The position numbers and the translations under genes are program-made. DNA of 64,000 nucleotides, taken from the NCBI GenBank assembly GCA_016795105.1, contig JAEUIH010000002.1, positions 1 through 64,000 of the forward strand. The letters are read 5' to 3'. The DNA is from Planctomyces sp. (GTDB lineage Bacteria; Planctomycetota; Planctomycetia; Planctomycetales; Planctomycetaceae). Below, piece by piece: positions 39,172 to 59,869 of this stretch (the stretch's first letter is position 1; each line of letters starts with the position of its first letter). The notes beneath the pieces are model-generated. The model was not told where the DNA came from, made no database searches, and saw only the letters and a list, made by a program, of their open reading frames with translations.

Positions 39172-40245
39172 ATGAATTACAAACCGCAAACTTTGACAGC
39201 CCTGCTGATTGTCTCGGGAATCGCTTATTCCGGGTTCACCGCCTCGGTATTTACTCGCTCGGCTATGGCGGCAATCGCCGATGAAGCTGCCGCTCCGGCA
39301 AACGCTGCTGGTCAAGAGACGGCTCCAGCCACACCTGCTGCTGGTCAGGAGGCAGCGCCGGCTGCCGGTGAATCCCCGGATCCGACGGTTCCGGCGGCTC
39401 AGGATGTCCTGACACAAGTCCGATCCAAACTGGAGAGCGTCGATTCTCTGAAATGTTCTGTCCAGGAAACCGCAATACTCTCTGGAATGAAGTTTGCCGC
39501 TTACGGCAACTACGTTCAGGCATCCGGAAATCGAGTGCGGCTTGAATTTCAGATCTTTCCGTCTCTCAGTGCAAAGGCCACTGACGGAACTCCAAAAATT
39601 GATTCAGACGTGAAGACTCCGGATCCAAAGACATCGTCTGGTCAACTACTTCAGGTGAGTACTGGTTCGATTCTTTATTCTGAATGGAAGAATGGTCCCA
39701 TCGTCCGCGTCACTCGCAGGAATCTCGCAGACATCTTCAAAGCGGCTGGTGAAACGACCAATTACGACGCCACACGCGCTGTTCAGGATCTTGGTGTCGG
39801 TGGTCTGACAGGCCTGATTGCTCGTCTGCAGTCAACAATGGACTTCGCCATGGTGAAACGCGAAAACCACGGTGGCGTCGAATTGCTCGTTCTGACGGGC
39901 CGCTGGACTTCAAAGGTACGCAAAGAAATCTTTCGCATCGAAGACGACATTCAGGTGATCCCCGAAGACTTTGTTCCTGAGTATGCCAGACTCTATATCG
40001 ATTCGCAGACCATGCTGCCCAGACGTCTTCAGTACCTGAAGCGAGGACCGGATCCGAGTCAGAAGATTGTTCGTCCGATTGTGACTCTGGATTTTCGTCA
40101 GATTGTGCTGAATGAAGCCGTTGCTGATGAGTTATTCTCCTACAAGGCCCCGGATGATGTGCAGGAAGAAGACATTACCGAACAGACCATCAAGAACATG
40201 CAGATGCTGACTCAGCCGAAGACCGAAACTCCCAAAACACCATGA
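39172..40245 (+). CDS. LolA-like outer-membrane lipoprotein carrier-fold protein
   Basis: 357 aa with a signal segment (about 8-32). A Pro/Ala/Glu-rich linker (about 35-75) precedes a beta-rich domain opening DVLTQVRSKLESVDSLKCSVQETAILSGMKFAAYGNYVQASGNRVRLEF, as LolA/LppX fold proteins begin. It continues with GVELLVLTGRWTSKVRK and the structural DTQTMLPRRLQYLKRG-type hairpin. This group is usually annotated as DUF1571 or LolA-like in planctomycetes. It may carry hydrophobic ligands across the periplasm. It lies 10 bp upstream of a VWA gene and is probably cotranscribed. Confidence 0.75.
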   Translation: MNYKPQTLTALLIVSGIAYSGFTASVFTRSAMAAIADEAAAPANAAGQETAPATPAAGQEAAPAAGESPDPTVPAAQDVLTQVRSKLESVDSLKCSVQETAILSGMKFAAYGNYVQASGNRVRLEFQIFPSLSAKATDGTPKIDSDVKTPDPKTSSGQLLQVSTGSILYSEWKNGPIVRVTRRNLADIFKAAGETTNYDATRAVQDLGVGGLTGLIARLQSTMDFAMVKRENHGGVELLVLTGRWTSKVRKEIFRIEDDIQVIPEDFVPEYARLYIDSQTMLPRRLQYLKRGPDPSQKIVRPIVTLDFRQIVLNEAVADELFSYKAPDDVQEEDITEQTIKNMQMLTQPKTETPKTP

Positions 40246-40255
40246 GGCAAGAACC

Positions 40256-41323
40256 ATGGAAGGCCCTGGAGAGTTGTCGCCGGAACAATGGTCATGGAAG
40301 TCGCTGTTGCCGAGTACCACCGGATCAGTGCTGATTCATGTGCTAGTATTCGTGGCATTGAGTTTTTCGTTCCGTGGGTGCCAGAAAAGTGCTCCTGGCG
40401 TCTCCGGAGGAGCCGAATTCCGGACCGTCGGTCTTGTCGTTGTTGAGAGCGAGGGGCTGTCGGATGGCGATGGATCGTCCGACGGACTTCCGATGGAATC
40501 TCCTGAAGACGCCCGTGAGAATCCCTCTGAAGATGAACAGAGTGAGACAACAGCAGAGTCTGTTCCGACGGCGGCGCCCTCACTGAATGAGCTTGTGTCG
40601 CCGTTGCGGTCTCCTGGCACGGACACCAATGATGCGACAAATTCGGAACTGCCCAGTGTCATCGGTGCCGGTTCACCGTTGTCGGGACTCCCTGCCGGCA
40701 CATCCGGGGCAACGTCCGATCTGATTCGGGCAAATCCAGCGGCCGGCGGGGCAGCTCAGTCGGGCGGGGCTCAGAAAGTGCCGGGTCAGACAACCTTCAT
40801 GAACATCGCCGACACTGGGCGCAGTTTTGTTTATGTTGTTGATGTGTCGTCGAGTATGACGGAAGGAAATCGACTCCAGATCGCAAAAAGCCAACTCAAG
40901 GCCAGCCTTCGGCTGCTTCAGCCAAATCAGTTCTTTCAGGTGGTCTTCTACAGTGAACCGCCCACAACCCGACTCCGACTTCGCGGGCGTGCCGCTCAGG
41001 ACATGTACCCCGCGACTGAAGTCAATCTGTTGCTCGCAGAACGGGAGATCGATCGTGTTGAAGCACAAAATGGGACAGAACACAGGTCCGCCCTGATTGA
41101 CGCTCTGAGTCTTGCACCGGATGTGATTTACTTCCTGACGGATGGCAGAGAACCTGCGCTATCGCCCGCTGAATTGTCAGAAGTTAAGCGTCTGACAGGT
41201 AAGACAACAATCCATGTCATCGAATTCGGAAACGGTGCACTCAGCTCCCGCACAACCAGCTGGCTCGAAAAACTGGCCCGGCAGTCAAACGGTGAATACA
41301 GAGAGTTCGTCGTCCGCGAATGA
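40256..41323 (+). CDS. Membrane-anchored von Willebrand factor A domain protein
   Basis: 355 aa. One membrane helix (about 22-40, GSVLIHVLVFVALSFSF) is followed by a long acidic Ser/Pro-rich stretch (about 45-185). A VWA domain (about 190-350) opens SFVYVVDVSSSMTEGNRLQIAKSQLKASL, with the metal-dependent adhesion motif D-x-S-x-S intact, a downstream Thr in FLTDGREPAL, and the ending IHVIEFGN. It probably binds partners through Mg2+/Mn2+ at the cell surface or periplasm. The stop is 8 bp before a REP-like cloverleaf repeat. Confidence 0.88.
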   Translation: MEGPGELSPEQWSWKSLLPSTTGSVLIHVLVFVALSFSFRGCQKSAPGVSGGAEFRTVGLVVVESEGLSDGDGSSDGLPMESPEDARENPSEDEQSETTAESVPTAAPSLNELVSPLRSPGTDTNDATNSELPSVIGAGSPLSGLPAGTSGATSDLIRANPAAGGAAQSGGAQKVPGQTTFMNIADTGRSFVYVVDVSSSMTEGNRLQIAKSQLKASLRLLQPNQFFQVVFYSEPPTTRLRLRGRAAQDMYPATEVNLLLAEREIDRVEAQNGTEHRSALIDALSLAPDVIYFLTDGREPALSPAELSEVKRLTGKTTIHVIEFGNGALSSRTTSWLEKLARQSNGEYREFVVRE

Positions 41324-41330
41324 GTCTGGC

Positions 41331-41415
41331 AAAAGTAGCAGGCACATTCCATGTGCCGTCCGCAACACACTGATTACGCATTGCGGACGGCATTCGGAGA
41401 ATGCCTGCTACTTTT
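41331..41415. repeat. Cloverleaf-forming REP/BIME-like element, copy A
   Basis: The 85-bp element is entirely made of stems. The ends AAAAGTAGCA and TGCTACTTTT pair (10 bp). Between them lie hairpins GGCACAT-TCC-ATGTGCC (41341-41357), GTCCGCAA ... TTGCGGAC (41358-41365 with 41381-41388, 15-nt loop) and GGCATTC-GGA-GAATGCC (41389-41405), with no unpaired base between the stems. It thus contains two GTAG-hairpin units facing each other. Left of it ends the VWA gene, right of it (4 bp) ends the DUF4256 gene. Confidence 0.9.
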
Positions 41416-41418
41416 ACG

Positions 41419-42006
41419 CTATTCACTGTTGTTGCCGACTCTGAGTAATCCGCGGAATCCGCGTACGGCATAGTATGACTGCGCGCCGTTGTGATAAACA
41501 AACACAGTGCCATAGCGAAAGTCGCCAAACAAGGCACCGCCGAGGCGACGAATTTCCGGTGGCGTCCAAAGCCAACTGGAGGTTTTGGAGTCGAATGTCC
41601 CAAGTGTCTGCAGCGTGCGATAGTCGTCTACTGTCAACAATTCGATCCCCATCGCTGCCGCCATCTCAACAGCACTGTTCTCCGGTCGATGCTCCTTCCT
41701 GGATTCGAGTCCCTGCTGGTCGTAGCAAACGGAGCGTCGCCCAGGCGGGCTTTCAGCGGAACAGTCGCAGAAGATGATTTCGTTGGTCGTCCTGTCAAAT
41801 CCAGTCACATCGGGTTCACCACCCGTGGTCTCCATTTCACTCAGTGCTAGGAGCTTCTGGGGTTGTGTTTCAAGCCGAACCTGAATCTCCTTCCACTTCA
41901 GTCCTGCATGTCGATTCATGTTTTCTTCAAAACGTGTCTTCAGTACAGCGAGCATCTCGTTTCGCTGCGTTGTTGACAAAGTCTGCTTTTTCTTCTTCAT
42001 CGACAT
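41419..42006 (-). CDS. DUF4256 domain-containing protein
   Basis: 195 aa from the ATG at 42006 (a TTG just upstream and an ATG two codons later are other options). After a Lys-rich start, SEMETTGGEPDVTGFDRTTNEIIFCDCSAESPPGRRSVCYDQQGLESRKEH, TLGTFDSKTSSWLWTPPEIRRLGGALFGDFRYGTVFVYHNGAQSYYAVRGFRGLLRV are the blocks of DUF4256. The fold or activity of this family is not known to me. No signal or membrane segment is seen. The gene is flanked closely by two copies of the same cloverleaf repeat (4 bp from its stop, 34 bp from its start), so it may have arrived with them. No partner gene is evident. Confidence 0.93.
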   Translation of the reverse strand: MSMKKKKQTLSTTQRNEMLAVLKTRFEENMNRHAGLKWKEIQVRLETQPQKLLALSEMETTGGEPDVTGFDRTTNEIIFCDCSAESPPGRRSVCYDQQGLESRKEHRPENSAVEMAAAMGIELLTVDDYRTLQTLGTFDSKTSSWLWTPPEIRRLGGALFGDFRYGTVFVYHNGAQSYYAVRGFRGLLRVGNNSE

Positions 42007-42039
42007 CAAAAATCATAGATCGGAAGACGATGGGGTGTC

Positions 42040-42114
42040 AAAAGTAGCAGGCACATTCCATGTGCCGTCCGCAACGCACTGGCGGACGGCATTCGGAGAA
42101 TGCCTGCTACTTTT
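42040..42114. repeat. Cloverleaf-forming REP/BIME-like element, copy B
   Basis: 75 bp, the same terminal AAAAGTAGCA / TGCTACTTTT and the same two outer hairpins as copy A, in the same orientation. The central stem is shorter: GTCCGC pairs GCGGAC (42067-42072 with 42082-42087) around a 9-nt loop, so 10 bp of copy A's centre are absent while pairing is kept. The TAG inside its inverted GTAG end serves as the stop codon of the rhodanese gene (42107-42109). Confidence 0.9.
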
Positions 42115-42562
42115 CTTCGGCTTTTTCGAAGCCGAATTTTACGAGGGCTTCATAGCCGGATTTTAGTGGACGAATATCGTAGCCTTTATCTTTCAGTGCT
42201 TCTGCACATTTCAGAACACGCCCACCGGAACGACAATGCAAATATATGGTCTTGTCCTTCGGAAGCATTTTGAGAAACTCTTCGGGAATCATGCCATCTT
42301 TGATCTTACTGAGCGGCATCAGCCTGGCTTTGCTCAAATGGCCGGCATCCCATTCCATCTGTTCACGAACATCCAGCAGAATCGCCTCTTTGGCTTCTAT
42401 TCGGGATTGTACCTTCTCAAGCGAGTCAGTGGTATGACCTGCCTCGGTGAACTTTGGCATCTCGGTGTCTTCGGTCGACTTCTCTTCGAAGGCAGCAAGA
42501 GATCCGGACGCAAACACCGAAAGTCCGGCCATCATTCCTGCAATCATCAGCGACTTGAACAT
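42107..42562 (-). CDS. Secreted rhodanese-like domain protein
   Basis: 151 aa from MFKSLMIAGMMAGLSVFAS, giving a clean signal peptide cut near SLA-AFE. An upstream start 15 codons earlier is less likely. The single rhodanese domain covers about 55-148: VQSRIEAKEAILLDVREQMEWDAGHLSKARLMPLSKI, then the active loop HCRSGGRVLKCAEAL with the catalytic Cys in HCRSGG. Rhodaneses transfer sulfane sulfur through a persulfide. The exported single-domain type often acts in periplasmic sulfur or redox chemistry. Its stop codon is supplied by REP-like copy B, so the C-terminal EK may derive from the insertion. Confidence 0.9.
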   Translation of the reverse strand: MFKSLMIAGMMAGLSVFASGSLAAFEEKSTEDTEMPKFTEAGHTTDSLEKVQSRIEAKEAILLDVREQMEWDAGHLSKARLMPLSKIKDGMIPEEFLKMLPKDKTIYLHCRSGGRVLKCAEALKDKGYDIRPLKSGYEALVKFGFEKAEEK

Positions 42563-42607
42563 CCTTCTATTCCTTTCTGAGCAATGATCGAATGAATCAA
42601 AAAGCAC

Positions 42608-42639
42608 TCAGGCCCCGGAACGGTAGTTCCGGGGCCTGA
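42608..42639 (-). terminator. Rho-independent terminator
   Basis: TCAGGCCCCGGAAC (42608-42621) pairs perfectly with GTTCCGGGGCCTGA (42626-42639) across a GGTA loop. On the minus strand it is followed by a run of five T (complement of 42599-42603). It ends the transcript of the large heme protein gene. Confidence 0.9.
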
Positions 42640-42648
42640 CAACAAGAG

Positions 42649-45597
42649 TCACTCTGAAAGAGGAGCGTCCGTTCCTGTCACTTTCGCGACCTTGTTCGAT
42701 TTGAACATTTCATGGTCGGGATCGCCACCTGACTGGAGGTAAGCAACAAGATCGAGGATTTCCTCTTTGTTCAGGTTGTTCAACAGACCGGCGGGCATCA
42801 TGGAAGTTTTTGACACAAACGATTCTTCGATGTCAGACCGAGTAATCGTAGTCAGATTTCCTGGATCCAGCATGTTTTCGCTAACCATAATGTTTTCAGC
42901 ATTCAGATTGACGACTCGTCCAACAACCTGACGACCGCTCTCGAGAACGAAGATGCTGGCTTCATACTGATCAGAGACCACTTTGCTGGGTTCAATCAGG
43001 GCTTCGAGCATCGTTCGAGCATTGTAGCGTCGACCGACAGCCGTCAGTTCCGGCCCAACAATTCCGCCGTCTCCGGCAAATCGATGGCACTTGTAACAGG
43101 CCGTCACGGTAAACATCTTCCGTCCGTTTTCGAAGTTCCGTCCCTTCAGCCCGGCTTCAACGTCTCCCAACAGATCGTCCACTTTCCATTCACGGACAAA
43201 TGGCCGACTGGCTGCTTCTACCAGATTCTCTGCTGGCTTGGGTCGAGCATCCAGGACATCCTTCAATGCCAACTTATCCGCTTCAGAAAGGGTATCGATA
43301 GCTTCCTGTCGGATATTCTTAATGAATCCGGAGAACGAGTTCCCACCTCGGAAGTTGGTGGAATCGACAAACCACTGAAAGTACTCCGTTCGCTGTTCCA
43401 CGGTCCAGTGTTCTTTAAGCGCTCGCAGACACAGAGCATAGTGAATCTGCTCTTCCTGTGTCGTTGCAGCCTTCAACAATGCCACTGTCTTTCCGGCAAC
43501 CTGCGGATCGTTCAGATACACCAGCAGCGCACAGAGTTCTCGATTCAGACGCGTGCTTCTCGCGGGATATCCTGCATTAAGAATGGCGGCCACCTCTGCC
43601 GCAATCTGTTCAGACGGTCGTCCCATTCGAATAAACGACAACGAAAGGACTCGCAGAGCTGCCAGCTTCTGGTCTTCGGTAAGCGAGTTTCCATCGAGTT
43701 TCGCCAAAGACTCGAGCAGCCGCGGTTGAAGTGATCTGTTACCACAGCGAGCCAGTGCCAGTAGTGCATTGATGCGAGATTCGTTGCTTGTTTGTTCAGC
43801 CAGTGCACGTTCCGCCCATTTCTCAACCGGCTGATGTTCAACTGCTATTCTCGCTGCAAATCGAATGTGTCGGTCATTATGTCCAAGATACTTCCACGCC
43901 GTGTCCAGAGCATTTGCGGCATCTGGAGTATGCAGCGACTCCAGTTGACGTCTCAGTGTCCGCCATTCACTGCCTTTATCCCGGGCTACAGCAACGGGTG
44001 CCGTTGATTCGCTGCCGGTATACGTTACGCGATAAAGTCCGGACTGTGTTCTTCGTCCTCCGATCGTGAAATACATTGCCTGATCGAGAGGATTGATCAC
44101 AATGTCTGTGACGGGAAGTGGAGCCGCAGAAATAAATCGTTCGGCTTCCCCAACATATGTTGAGCCTGATGGTGTCATGTGCACTGCATAGATGACCCCA
44201 TAACTCCAGTCAGAAATGAACAGGCTCTTCTGGTACTTCGCCGGAAATTTTGCGCCTGTGCCGAACGCGATTCCGGTAGGAGACCCAGGGCCAATGTCGA
44301 CCACAGAGCCCAGACTGTCCGGATACCAAACCGGCCATTTGCCGGTTCCGGATCGCCACCCAAACTCTGCCCCACTTGAAACATGGTTGACTCGTGTTGG
44401 GCGATACCATGGTGATCCTACGTCCCACTCCATATCTGCATCATAGGTGAAGAGTTCACCCTCGCTGTTATATGCAATGTCGTATTCATTTCGAAAACCA
44501 CTTGCGAGCATCTCCCAGTTTTTGCCATCCGGGTCGACCTTTGCAATCCATCCACCAGGTGCCATGATGCCAACGGCGTGGCCACCTGCATCCCACATTC
44601 TGGGCAGTAGTTGGTCTTCATCCCAATTGCGAGGAACTCGCGAACTGCTGAAGTCAGTCGGTTTCGTATGATTTCCTGCACAGACAACAAGGGATTTCCG
44701 ATCAGGAGACAACAGAACCGCGTGAGGACCGTGTTCCCCGCCACCGTCAAGTTTTCTCAGGTGCTCAACGCTGTCATACTTGTCATCCGAATTCGTGTCG
44801 CGAACGCGATACAGACCCTGCTTTTCCGGATCACCACCGTTCACCATCACATACAGACTATCAAACGCACACAGCAATCCCTGGGCCATCCCGATTTCCA
44901 GGTCGATCGTTTCAATGGCGATCGGGTTGGTTGATCCTATGGCTGGAGGTGTGATTCGATACAGCTTGCTGTACTGGTCTGAAACCAGCAGACGCCCCTT
45001 CGGATCGTTGGTCATGGAAACCCATGATCCCATAGAATCTCCGGGCACTGAATAAAGAAGTTCGACCTTGAAGCCGTCCAGAAACTTCATGTCAGCAACG
45101 GGTGTCGCCTGAGGAACTGGTGGAGCTTCATCGCTCAGCACAATTGATTCAATCAACATCTCGCCCGGCTTTCCCATAGGGTCAACTCGCAGCGATGTGA
45201 CGGGGGAATCAGTTGTGAACCAAAGCTTGACGGATCGAAATTCGTTCCTGCTTCCGCTCAGTTCTCCCTGAACACTGCGTTCTTCTGATGTCCCCGGAGC
45301 AGCTTCAGTTGTCCAGAAGACCTGAATCGGGGTCTTTCCGGCCATGCGAGCTCGAATTTCAACCTGTTGCTGTCCAGCCCGACCTTTCACAGGTGCCGTC
45401 AGAAACGGATCATCTCCGGTTGCAACCACCTTGAGATGCCCATCTTCTATGGAAAGTTGCGTTTGATCATTTGGCTGCCAGCCGGTTGGTTCAGCATCGA
45501 AATCCCAGCGAGCAATCTCGTCGGCATGGACTGGCACCCACATCAATGCACACGCACTGAGCATGCAGGTGAGAAGTCTCAGGGGTCGTACTTTCAT
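42649..45597 (-). CDS. PVC-type heme-binding beta-propeller/HEAT protein
   Basis: 982 aa from MKVRPLRLLTCMLSACALMWVPVHA (signal peptide; GAAGAAG box upstream). A longer frame overlaps the next gene. An N-terminal carbohydrate-binding-like beta domain (about 25-155) is followed by a propeller of the membrane-bound dehydrogenase type (about 170-560: DFKVELLYSVPGDSMGSW-like opening, GEHGPHAVLLSPDRKSLVVCAGNHTKP, GFRNEYDIAYNSEGELFTYDADMEWDVGSPWYRPTRVNHV). HEAT-like helices follow (about 570-830), then a cytochrome c domain with CYKCH in MFTVTACYKCHRFAGDGGIVGPEL. The family is restricted to the PVC superphylum. It probably feeds electrons from a quinoprotein-like or sugar-oxidising reaction. Confidence 0.9.
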   Translation of the reverse strand: MKVRPLRLLTCMLSACALMWVPVHADEIARWDFDAEPTGWQPNDQTQLSIEDGHLKVVATGDDPFLTAPVKGRAGQQQVEIRARMAGKTPIQVFWTTEAAPGTSEERSVQGELSGSRNEFRSVKLWFTTDSPVTSLRVDPMGKPGEMLIESIVLSDEAPPVPQATPVADMKFLDGFKVELLYSVPGDSMGSWVSMTNDPKGRLLVSDQYSKLYRITPPAIGSTNPIAIETIDLEIGMAQGLLCAFDSLYVMVNGGDPEKQGLYRVRDTNSDDKYDSVEHLRKLDGGGEHGPHAVLLSPDRKSLVVCAGNHTKPTDFSSSRVPRNWDEDQLLPRMWDAGGHAVGIMAPGGWIAKVDPDGKNWEMLASGFRNEYDIAYNSEGELFTYDADMEWDVGSPWYRPTRVNHVSSGAEFGWRSGTGKWPVWYPDSLGSVVDIGPGSPTGIAFGTGAKFPAKYQKSLFISDWSYGVIYAVHMTPSGSTYVGEAERFISAAPLPVTDIVINPLDQAMYFTIGGRRTQSGLYRVTYTGSESTAPVAVARDKGSEWRTLRRQLESLHTPDAANALDTAWKYLGHNDRHIRFAARIAVEHQPVEKWAERALAEQTSNESRINALLALARCGNRSLQPRLLESLAKLDGNSLTEDQKLAALRVLSLSFIRMGRPSEQIAAEVAAILNAGYPARSTRLNRELCALLVYLNDPQVAGKTVALLKAATTQEEQIHYALCLRALKEHWTVEQRTEYFQWFVDSTNFRGGNSFSGFIKNIRQEAIDTLSEADKLALKDVLDARPKPAENLVEAASRPFVREWKVDDLLGDVEAGLKGRNFENGRKMFTVTACYKCHRFAGDGGIVGPELTAVGRRYNARTMLEALIEPSKVVSDQYEASIFVLESGRQVVGRVVNLNAENIMVSENMLDPGNLTTITRSDIEESFVSKTSMMPAGLLNNLNKEEILDLVAYLQSGGDPDHEMFKSNKVAKVTGTDAPLSE

Positions 45598-52751: not shown

Positions 52752-52804
52752 TGGATCGCTCCGCGATCCATCATCCCCCATGGTAGCGGATCGCTCCGCG
52801 ATCC
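52752..52804. repeat. Paired GTAG/GTGG-hairpin repeats with TCC apex
   Basis: Two hairpins share TCC loops. TGGATCGC-TCC-GCGATCCA lies at 52752-52770. GGATCGC-TCC-GCGATCC lies at 52788-52804, preceded by GTAGC at 52783. The second carries the same GTAG leader as the 41 kb elements and the arrays. They lie in the 294-bp gap between the FtsQ-like gene start and the antiporter gene end. I see no gene in that gap. Confidence 0.85.
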
Positions 52805-59468: not shown

Positions 59469-59603
59469 GAGCAGTCCTCACAAACAACAACAAAGACGGT
59501 GCCTTTTCCCTGTCGGAAATCTCAGTTCCCCGCGTGCGAAAAAATTCAAAAGTTCCACCCAAAGCCCCCAAATCCAGAACGGTCATTCCTTGTCATCGCA
59601 AAT

Positions 59604-59869
59604 GTAGGATGGGGATTCCTCCCCGTCCCGCACTGGTCCGAGTTCCGCCGCAGCGCAGGGCGGCTCAAGTGTAGGATGGGGATTCCTCCCCGTCCCGCAC
59701 TGGTTCGAGTCCTGCCGCAGCGCAAGGCGGCTCAAGTGTAGGATGGGGATTCCTCCCCGTCCCGCACTGGTTCGAGTCCTGCCACGGCGCAGTGACGGCT
59801 CGGGCAGGAATGCCCAAGCTACGATCTGTCCCGCTGCGGCATAGCGACGAATCCTCGAGCTACGATTTC
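59604..59869. repeat. Tandem array of 67-bp units with GTAG-hairpin cores, plus inverted unit
   Basis: GTAGGAT starts at 59604, 59671 and 59738 (67-bp period), each followed by GGGGATTCCTCCCC and GTCCCGCACTGG. The third unit runs into an inverted copy GGGCAGGAATGCCC-AAGCTAC near 59801-59821 and a degenerate inverted copy ending GAGCTAC at about 59862. The array abuts the stop codon of the GH32 gene. Hairpin stem GGGG-A / T-CCCC replaces GGGC-A / T-GCCC of the 0.65-kb array, a two-sided change. Confidence 0.9.

Follow-up and report, generated by a model that had tools for sequence, protein, structure and literature searches.

The window analysed here, a stretch of 64,000 nt at the start of a Planctomyces sp. 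contig, contains a DUF4256 gene lying between two direct repeats, A and B, which raises the question of whether the gene arrived together with these repeats as a mobile cassette or whether the repeats settled beside it on their own account. We consider it likely, with a probability of roughly 85%, that A and B are independently inserted, RAYT-dispersed REPINs located at gene ends and that DUF4256 is a separate gene, probably acquired. This answer builds on a repeat family recognised by structure and copy number, a REP array at a RAYT-like gene, co-variation in the REP stem and the placement of sampled copies at gene ends. The features needed below are as follows.

40256 to 41323, plus strand: VWA (von Willebrand factor A domain) gene, preceding REPIN A
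41331 to 41415, plus strand: REPIN A, 85 nt (AAAA, REP arm, 19-nt spacer, inverted REP arm, TTTT)
41335 to 41363 (plus) and 41383 to 41411 (minus): REP arms of A, lying between the stop codons of the converging genes vwa and DUF4256
41419 to 42009, minus strand: DUF4256 gene (PF14066, E 6.3e-85), patchily distributed
42040 to 42114, plus strand: REPIN B, 75 nt (AAAA, REP arm, 9-nt spacer, inverted REP arm, TTTT)
42044 to 42072 (plus) and 42082 to 42110 (minus): REP arms of B, the minus-strand GTAG giving the rhodanese stop TAG (42107 to 42109)
42107 to 42607, minus strand: rhodanese gene, with its stop codon inside REPIN B
175 to 834 of contig C42 in the same genome (G000; loci L122 and L265): RAYT-like gene with HVH motif and Y1_Tnp domain

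The direct repeats flanking DUF4256 described in a sequence-only reading of this locus are real and lie at the positions it gave. They run in the same direction around the minus-strand gene, with 3 bp between the DUF4256 stop codon and the end of A and 33 bp between B and the DUF4256 ATG at 42006. The arms of A and B are identical, and their spacers are unlike (19 versus 9 nt). Folding energies are far below those of shuffled sequences (z of -9.2 for A and -7.7 for B, with none of 200 shuffles folding as well), and in both repeats the minimum-energy fold is a long interrupted hairpin, at -30.8 versus -27.3 kcal/mol for a four-way junction in A and -29.3 versus -25.8 kcal/mol in B. The four-way junction proposed earlier is a possible fold of both but, being 3.5 kcal/mol worse than the hairpin, not the one of minimum energy; and its base pairs take in 75 and 80% of the nucleotides, short of the nearly complete pairing that had been stated. 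On the minus strand ahead of DUF4256, a promoter-like site was identified at 42041 to 42012 (TTGACA, 18 nt, TATGAT; 11/12). The edge of REPIN B supplies the leading two bases of the -35 box. Shuffles give 1.5 such sites at the same threshold versus the 1 found, and the site may be due to chance.

Each repeat follows one plan, in which GTAG and CA are followed by a 7-bp stem with a TCC loop and by GTCCGC, then a spacer and the same unit inverted. The REP itself is 23 nt long, GTAG-tagged, with a 7-bp stem and a TCC loop. Two inverted, GTAG-tagged palindromic REPs, a feature of REPIN membership, are present, and A and B are, judged from their sequence, REPINs, that is, head-head dimers of GTAG-tagged REPs. 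Genome-wide, the arm-1 pattern with up to three mismatches was found at 342 places in 8.9 Mb (155 forward and 187 reverse), the reversed control of the pattern at 0 places in the same genome, and exact arms with an AAA edge at 61 and 83 places for the two halves of the pattern; high copy number and genome-wide dispersal, also features of membership, are present. The repeats do bracket the gene as the sequence-only reading noted, but with 342 arm-1 places in the genome the copies are not unique. Many REPIN copies are held in tandem arrays, in several of which the units are one base apart. In the doublets listed, the arms are inverted, the stem letters differ between the arms (heterodimers) and the spacers range from 9 to 59 nt. 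Among 137 distinct arm sites at the fetched loci, the three variable positions of the stem are fully paired in 134 and occur in eight versions, chiefly CAT/ATG, TTC/GAA, GAC/GTC and CTC/GAG, which indicates that the stem is maintained while its letters vary. Conserved arms together with a variable spacer and compensatory stem change, a further feature of membership, are thereby present.

The outer edges of REPINs in this genome mostly show AAA ahead of GTAG and TTT behind CTAC; this AAA edge may be a target preference or a part of the element, and the preference is partly built into the sample because loci were chosen by an A or AAA edge. Elsewhere in the window, a single GTAG-headed palindrome of other sequence, perhaps a chance occurrence, lies at 52783 (plus strand), six tandem copies of an approximately 101-nt repeat (identity to the first copy falling from 93 to 70%) occupy 658 to 1275, and a 67-nt repeat is present in three tandem copies at 59599 to 59799.

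A candidate enzyme for the dispersal of this family is encoded in the same genome. Nine Y1_Tnp matches were identified, eight of them above the cut-off and two of them pieces of one open frame. In the stretches read, the C42 gene alone among the nine has these REPs adjacent: a REPIN array abuts it, and the GTAG of the array is the stop codon of the gene. A genome RAYT flanked by the same REP, again a feature of membership, is present by domain and linkage. The translated protein carries an HVH motif and passes the Pfam Y1_Tnp cut-off (27.6 bits vs. 23), and it scores 63.6 of 80 bits against the NCBIfam equivalog NF047646 (REP_Tyr_transpos), below the curated cut-off; for this reason the name RAYT-like is used, based only on the domain and the linkage to REPs.

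Relatives of the C42 protein matched in 24 of 59 genomes, the own genome included, the best elsewhere being those of G011 (64% identity), G035 (59%), G051 (54%), G017 (48%) and G001 and G029 (both 47%). REPs with an identical GGCA...TGCC stem base flank the relatives in G011 and G051, and those in G035, G001 and G017 have beside them GTAG palindromes that agree in plan and in the TCC loop but differ in the stem (compare L267, L270 and L271); no GTAG palindrome was found near the relative in G029. RAYT relatives accompanied by REPs of matching plan fit a joint divergence of repeat and transposase, and TnpAREP and REP diverging together have been described in the available part of one report (PMC8266576). 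The pattern is uneven: G035, with a relative at 59% identity, yet has 0 places with the REP pattern of the own genome, and G009 and G054 have 32 and 22 REP matches and no C42 relative at E 0.001, a combination that argues against joint divergence of the repeat and its RAYT.

The placement of the copies points to gene ends. At 22 of 78 sampled outer edges, the TAG of GTAG closes an open frame that is 100 codons long or longer; the two remaining frames give 4 and 0 such cases (binomial P 1e-7). The sample comprises 49 clusters with flanks of at least 400 nt, at loci chosen for carrying A or AAA at the edge, and the count is of open frames, not proven genes. REPIN B is one of the 22, supplying the TAG stop of the rhodanese gene. 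The sequence-only reading was right that B lies beside the start of DUF4256, but the site is not cleanly intergenic, since the GTAG of B is the rhodanese stop codon. The rhodanese protein ends in ...GFEKAEEK at the TAG from B and that of congener G001 ends in ...GFEKAE, and the rhodanese of congener G002 extends eight residues beyond the end point of the G001 protein (after GFEKA and one more residue); with the G002 protein longer than that of G001, the comparison does not fix the native end of the own rhodanese. GTAG REP termini frequently supply the TAG stop of flanking ORFs, and a site between convergent stops, such as that of A, is one of the usual REP locations, according to the portion of the GTAG REP survey at hand (PMC3733652).

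Whether a close pair such as A and B is exceptional was assessed from the spacing of at least 126 clusters taken from listed sites, which undercount the family, under a chance model that spreads them evenly over 8.9 Mb and takes no account of where contigs end or genes lie, the A/B pair being counted among the observed. Two neighbouring REPIN pairs were observed at less than 1 kb (A/B is one) versus 1.18 expected (P 0.32), five versus 2.03 within 1.5 kb (P 0.05, borderline), six versus 3.78 within 2.5 kb, nine versus 6.36 within 4 kb and 12 versus 9.59 within 6 kb; P for limits wider than 1.5 kb ranges from 0.17 to 0.25 (0.25 at 6 kb). In this count, close REPIN pairs appear to lie near chance frequency, with the 1.5-kb limit approaching significance.

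These counts bear on the possibility that the whole segment from A through DUF4256 to B was moved as one unit by a RAYT acting on its two outer ends (left for A, right for B). As in a composite transposon, the gene indeed has a copy of the same element on either side: arms of the same types run in the same direction around one patchily distributed gene, and the junction between the vwa and rhodanese blocks is missing from the congener stretches read. Close pairs near chance frequency would speak against such capture, as does the tight position of both REPINs at gene ends, which they share with many of the family. In a comparison with 23 other CAT-first REPINs, the best match of the B spacer is A, at a marginal score, which would favour capture, but the spacer nearest to that of A is at another locus; on the same comparison, the idea that A was recently duplicated nearby to give B was dropped. 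The GC3 of DUF4256, at 0.594 the top of seven genes, would favour capture, but its excess is slight and the GC of the gene lies within the range of its neighbours. Finally, none of 83 DUF4256 loci elsewhere has a 15-mer common to both sides of the gene. Taken together, we regard movement as a unit as very unlikely. Hardly any probability attaches to the broader idea that a RAYT is able to move a host gene via the outermost REP ends and that REPIN pairs, serving as cassettes, aided the settling of DUF4256; among the matches listed in the literature on REPINs, RAYTs and passengers, no title suggests gene capture.

The flank comparison drew on 84 loci, namely those of 80 of the 445 DUF4256 relatives and of four further relatives, one of the 84 being dropped for short flanks. 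The absence of a common 15-mer from all 83 implies that DUF4256 occurs elsewhere without such repeats. No GTAG palindrome (perfect stem of at least 7, loop of 3 to 4) was found at the DUF4256 loci L113 to L116 either, and repeats around DUF4256 in other genomes were dropped as a candidate on these two results. The same bracketed unit was not found at a second site in the own genome or at the 83 loci elsewhere. With REPINs in high copy, pairs near chance, sites at gene ends and no such flanks at other DUF4256 loci, the suggestion that the gene moved with the repeats finds no support, and the alternative that the sequence-only reading had itself raised, insertion of repeats on each side of the gene, is the better fit.

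That DUF4256 moved in by some route is a different matter. The gene was found in five of 59 genomes searched, the own genome included (four of 58 relatives), and in none of three congeners, one of which is represented by a genome 66% complete; the own genome has one match. Scanning GTDB genomes yielded 445 confirmed relatives; the 80 retained are mostly Bacteroidota by title and include five planctomycete-labelled ones. A DUF4256 phylogeny, proposed in the earlier reading as a check, comprised 85 rows, including these 80 of 445 and the four planctomycete relatives; much of it is open, 49 of 82 inner branches being drawn so with bootstrap support not settled. The own gene pairs with an Ignavibacteria row (98/82); of the four planctomycete relatives, two are split from it at 99/97 and the other two at 86/86. 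Neither these four nor the five planctomycete-labelled rows provide its nearest neighbour, and three planctomycete-labelled rows stand in an open comb in the tree group around it. The sparse occurrence, the absence from congeners and the Ignavibacteria neighbour make the earlier proposal of an acquired gene plausible, and DUF4256 was probably acquired horizontally. Codon use, which had also been suggested as a check and was measured as GC and GC3, gave a divided answer: the GC of 0.525 is ordinary (0.475 to 0.564 in six neighbours), and the GC3 exceeds the 0.507 to 0.562 of the same six neighbours by a small margin. With GC within range and GC3 just above it, the acquisition need not be recent. 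DUF4256 is not named in the literature searched.

Congeners were compared at the neighbouring genes. The vwa genes of congeners are 51 to 57% identical to the own; the vwa block is kept in G001 and G003, G002 keeps vwa alone, and the rhodanese-cytochrome block is kept in G001 and G002. Vwa and rhodanese occur together in none of six congener stretches fetched, and no empty site was seen; beyond vwa the contig continues for just 3.1 kb in G002 and 1.9 kb in G003, and a rhodanese gene may lie further on in these two. The best rhodanese match of G003 is weak (E 7e-5). The open frames after vwa in G001 are unlike those in G003. GTAG palindromes at congener vwa or rhodanese genes were dropped as a candidate, none being present at L105 to L112 by the strict test (perfect stem of at least 7, loop of 3 to 4).

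Such a locus could have arisen if crossing-over between dispersed REPINs had joined a vwa region to a DUF4256-rhodanese region. Homologous recombination acts on repeats present in high copy, as the REPINs are, and G001 carries its vwa block on one contig and its rhodanese-cytochrome block on another, each bordered by other open frames. At 67 to 77 nt, however, the repeats are short for recombination, one REPIN at the joint would suffice, and the congeners are so distant that any old rearrangement would look alike. We consider this origin of the locus unlikely.

A local function of the repeats was likewise weighed, with A and B as structured RNA elements or terminators that are retained in place and not mobile. 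The arms are terminator-like on both strands, making up 4 of the 11 terminator-like sites found (2.7 expected from shuffles), and TTTT follows the hairpin. The hundreds of places with near-identical arms, the tandem arrays and the RAYT-like gene beside one of these arrays fit a dispersed element instead, termination could be a by-product, and within positions 40000 to 44000 no Rfam family matched at E up to 1, a result on which a known structured RNA was dropped as a candidate. Immobile elements of this kind seem highly improbable here.

In the preferred reading of independently inserted REPINs, a RAYT-like HUH tyrosine transposase from C42 would disperse REPINs in trans, via single-stranded, hairpin-forming intermediates. 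REPIN A would have inserted where vwa and DUF4256 converge, between their stops, independently of B, and B where the rhodanese gene ends, with its GTAG supplying the stop; DUF4256 would be a separate gene, probably of horizontal origin, lying between them. As a side effect, REPINs might act as hairpin terminators or form mRNA 3' ends, in keeping with the TTTT after the arms on both strands. A tempting claim of a mobile cassette is hereby replaced by a well-described type of element. Planctomycete RAYT relatives with REPs of one plan, some of them with other stems, would form a natural series for the study of how transposases read hairpins, a modest gain.

The closest likenesses are to three described systems, each compared through the part of the respective paper available. 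In Stenotrophomonas maltophilia (PMC8266576), the REP is likewise a 23-nt, GTAG-tagged perfect palindrome with a 3-nt loop; its stem is 8 bp, whereas the stem here is 7 bp with two more bases after GTAG. The REPINs of Pseudomonas fluorescens SBW25 (PMC3116915) similarly consist of two highly conserved inverted REPs with a less conserved spacer, and they share compensatory changes, tandem clusters and proximity to a RAYT; next-neighbour distances above 200 bp fit a random model in SBW25, and spacing is near chance here too. Different from SBW25, the REP sequence is another one, and the doublets have unequal stems and spacers of 9 to 59 nt. With the GTAG REP super-family (PMC3733652), the repeats have in common the GTAG tag, a short stem, a very short loop, head-head heterodimers, sites at gene ends and the supply of TAG; the placement goes by plan, the stem letters of the 24 published families lying outside the comparison. 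GTAG REP families have been reported in Planctomycetes in the same source, where R. baltica is named with several REP families.
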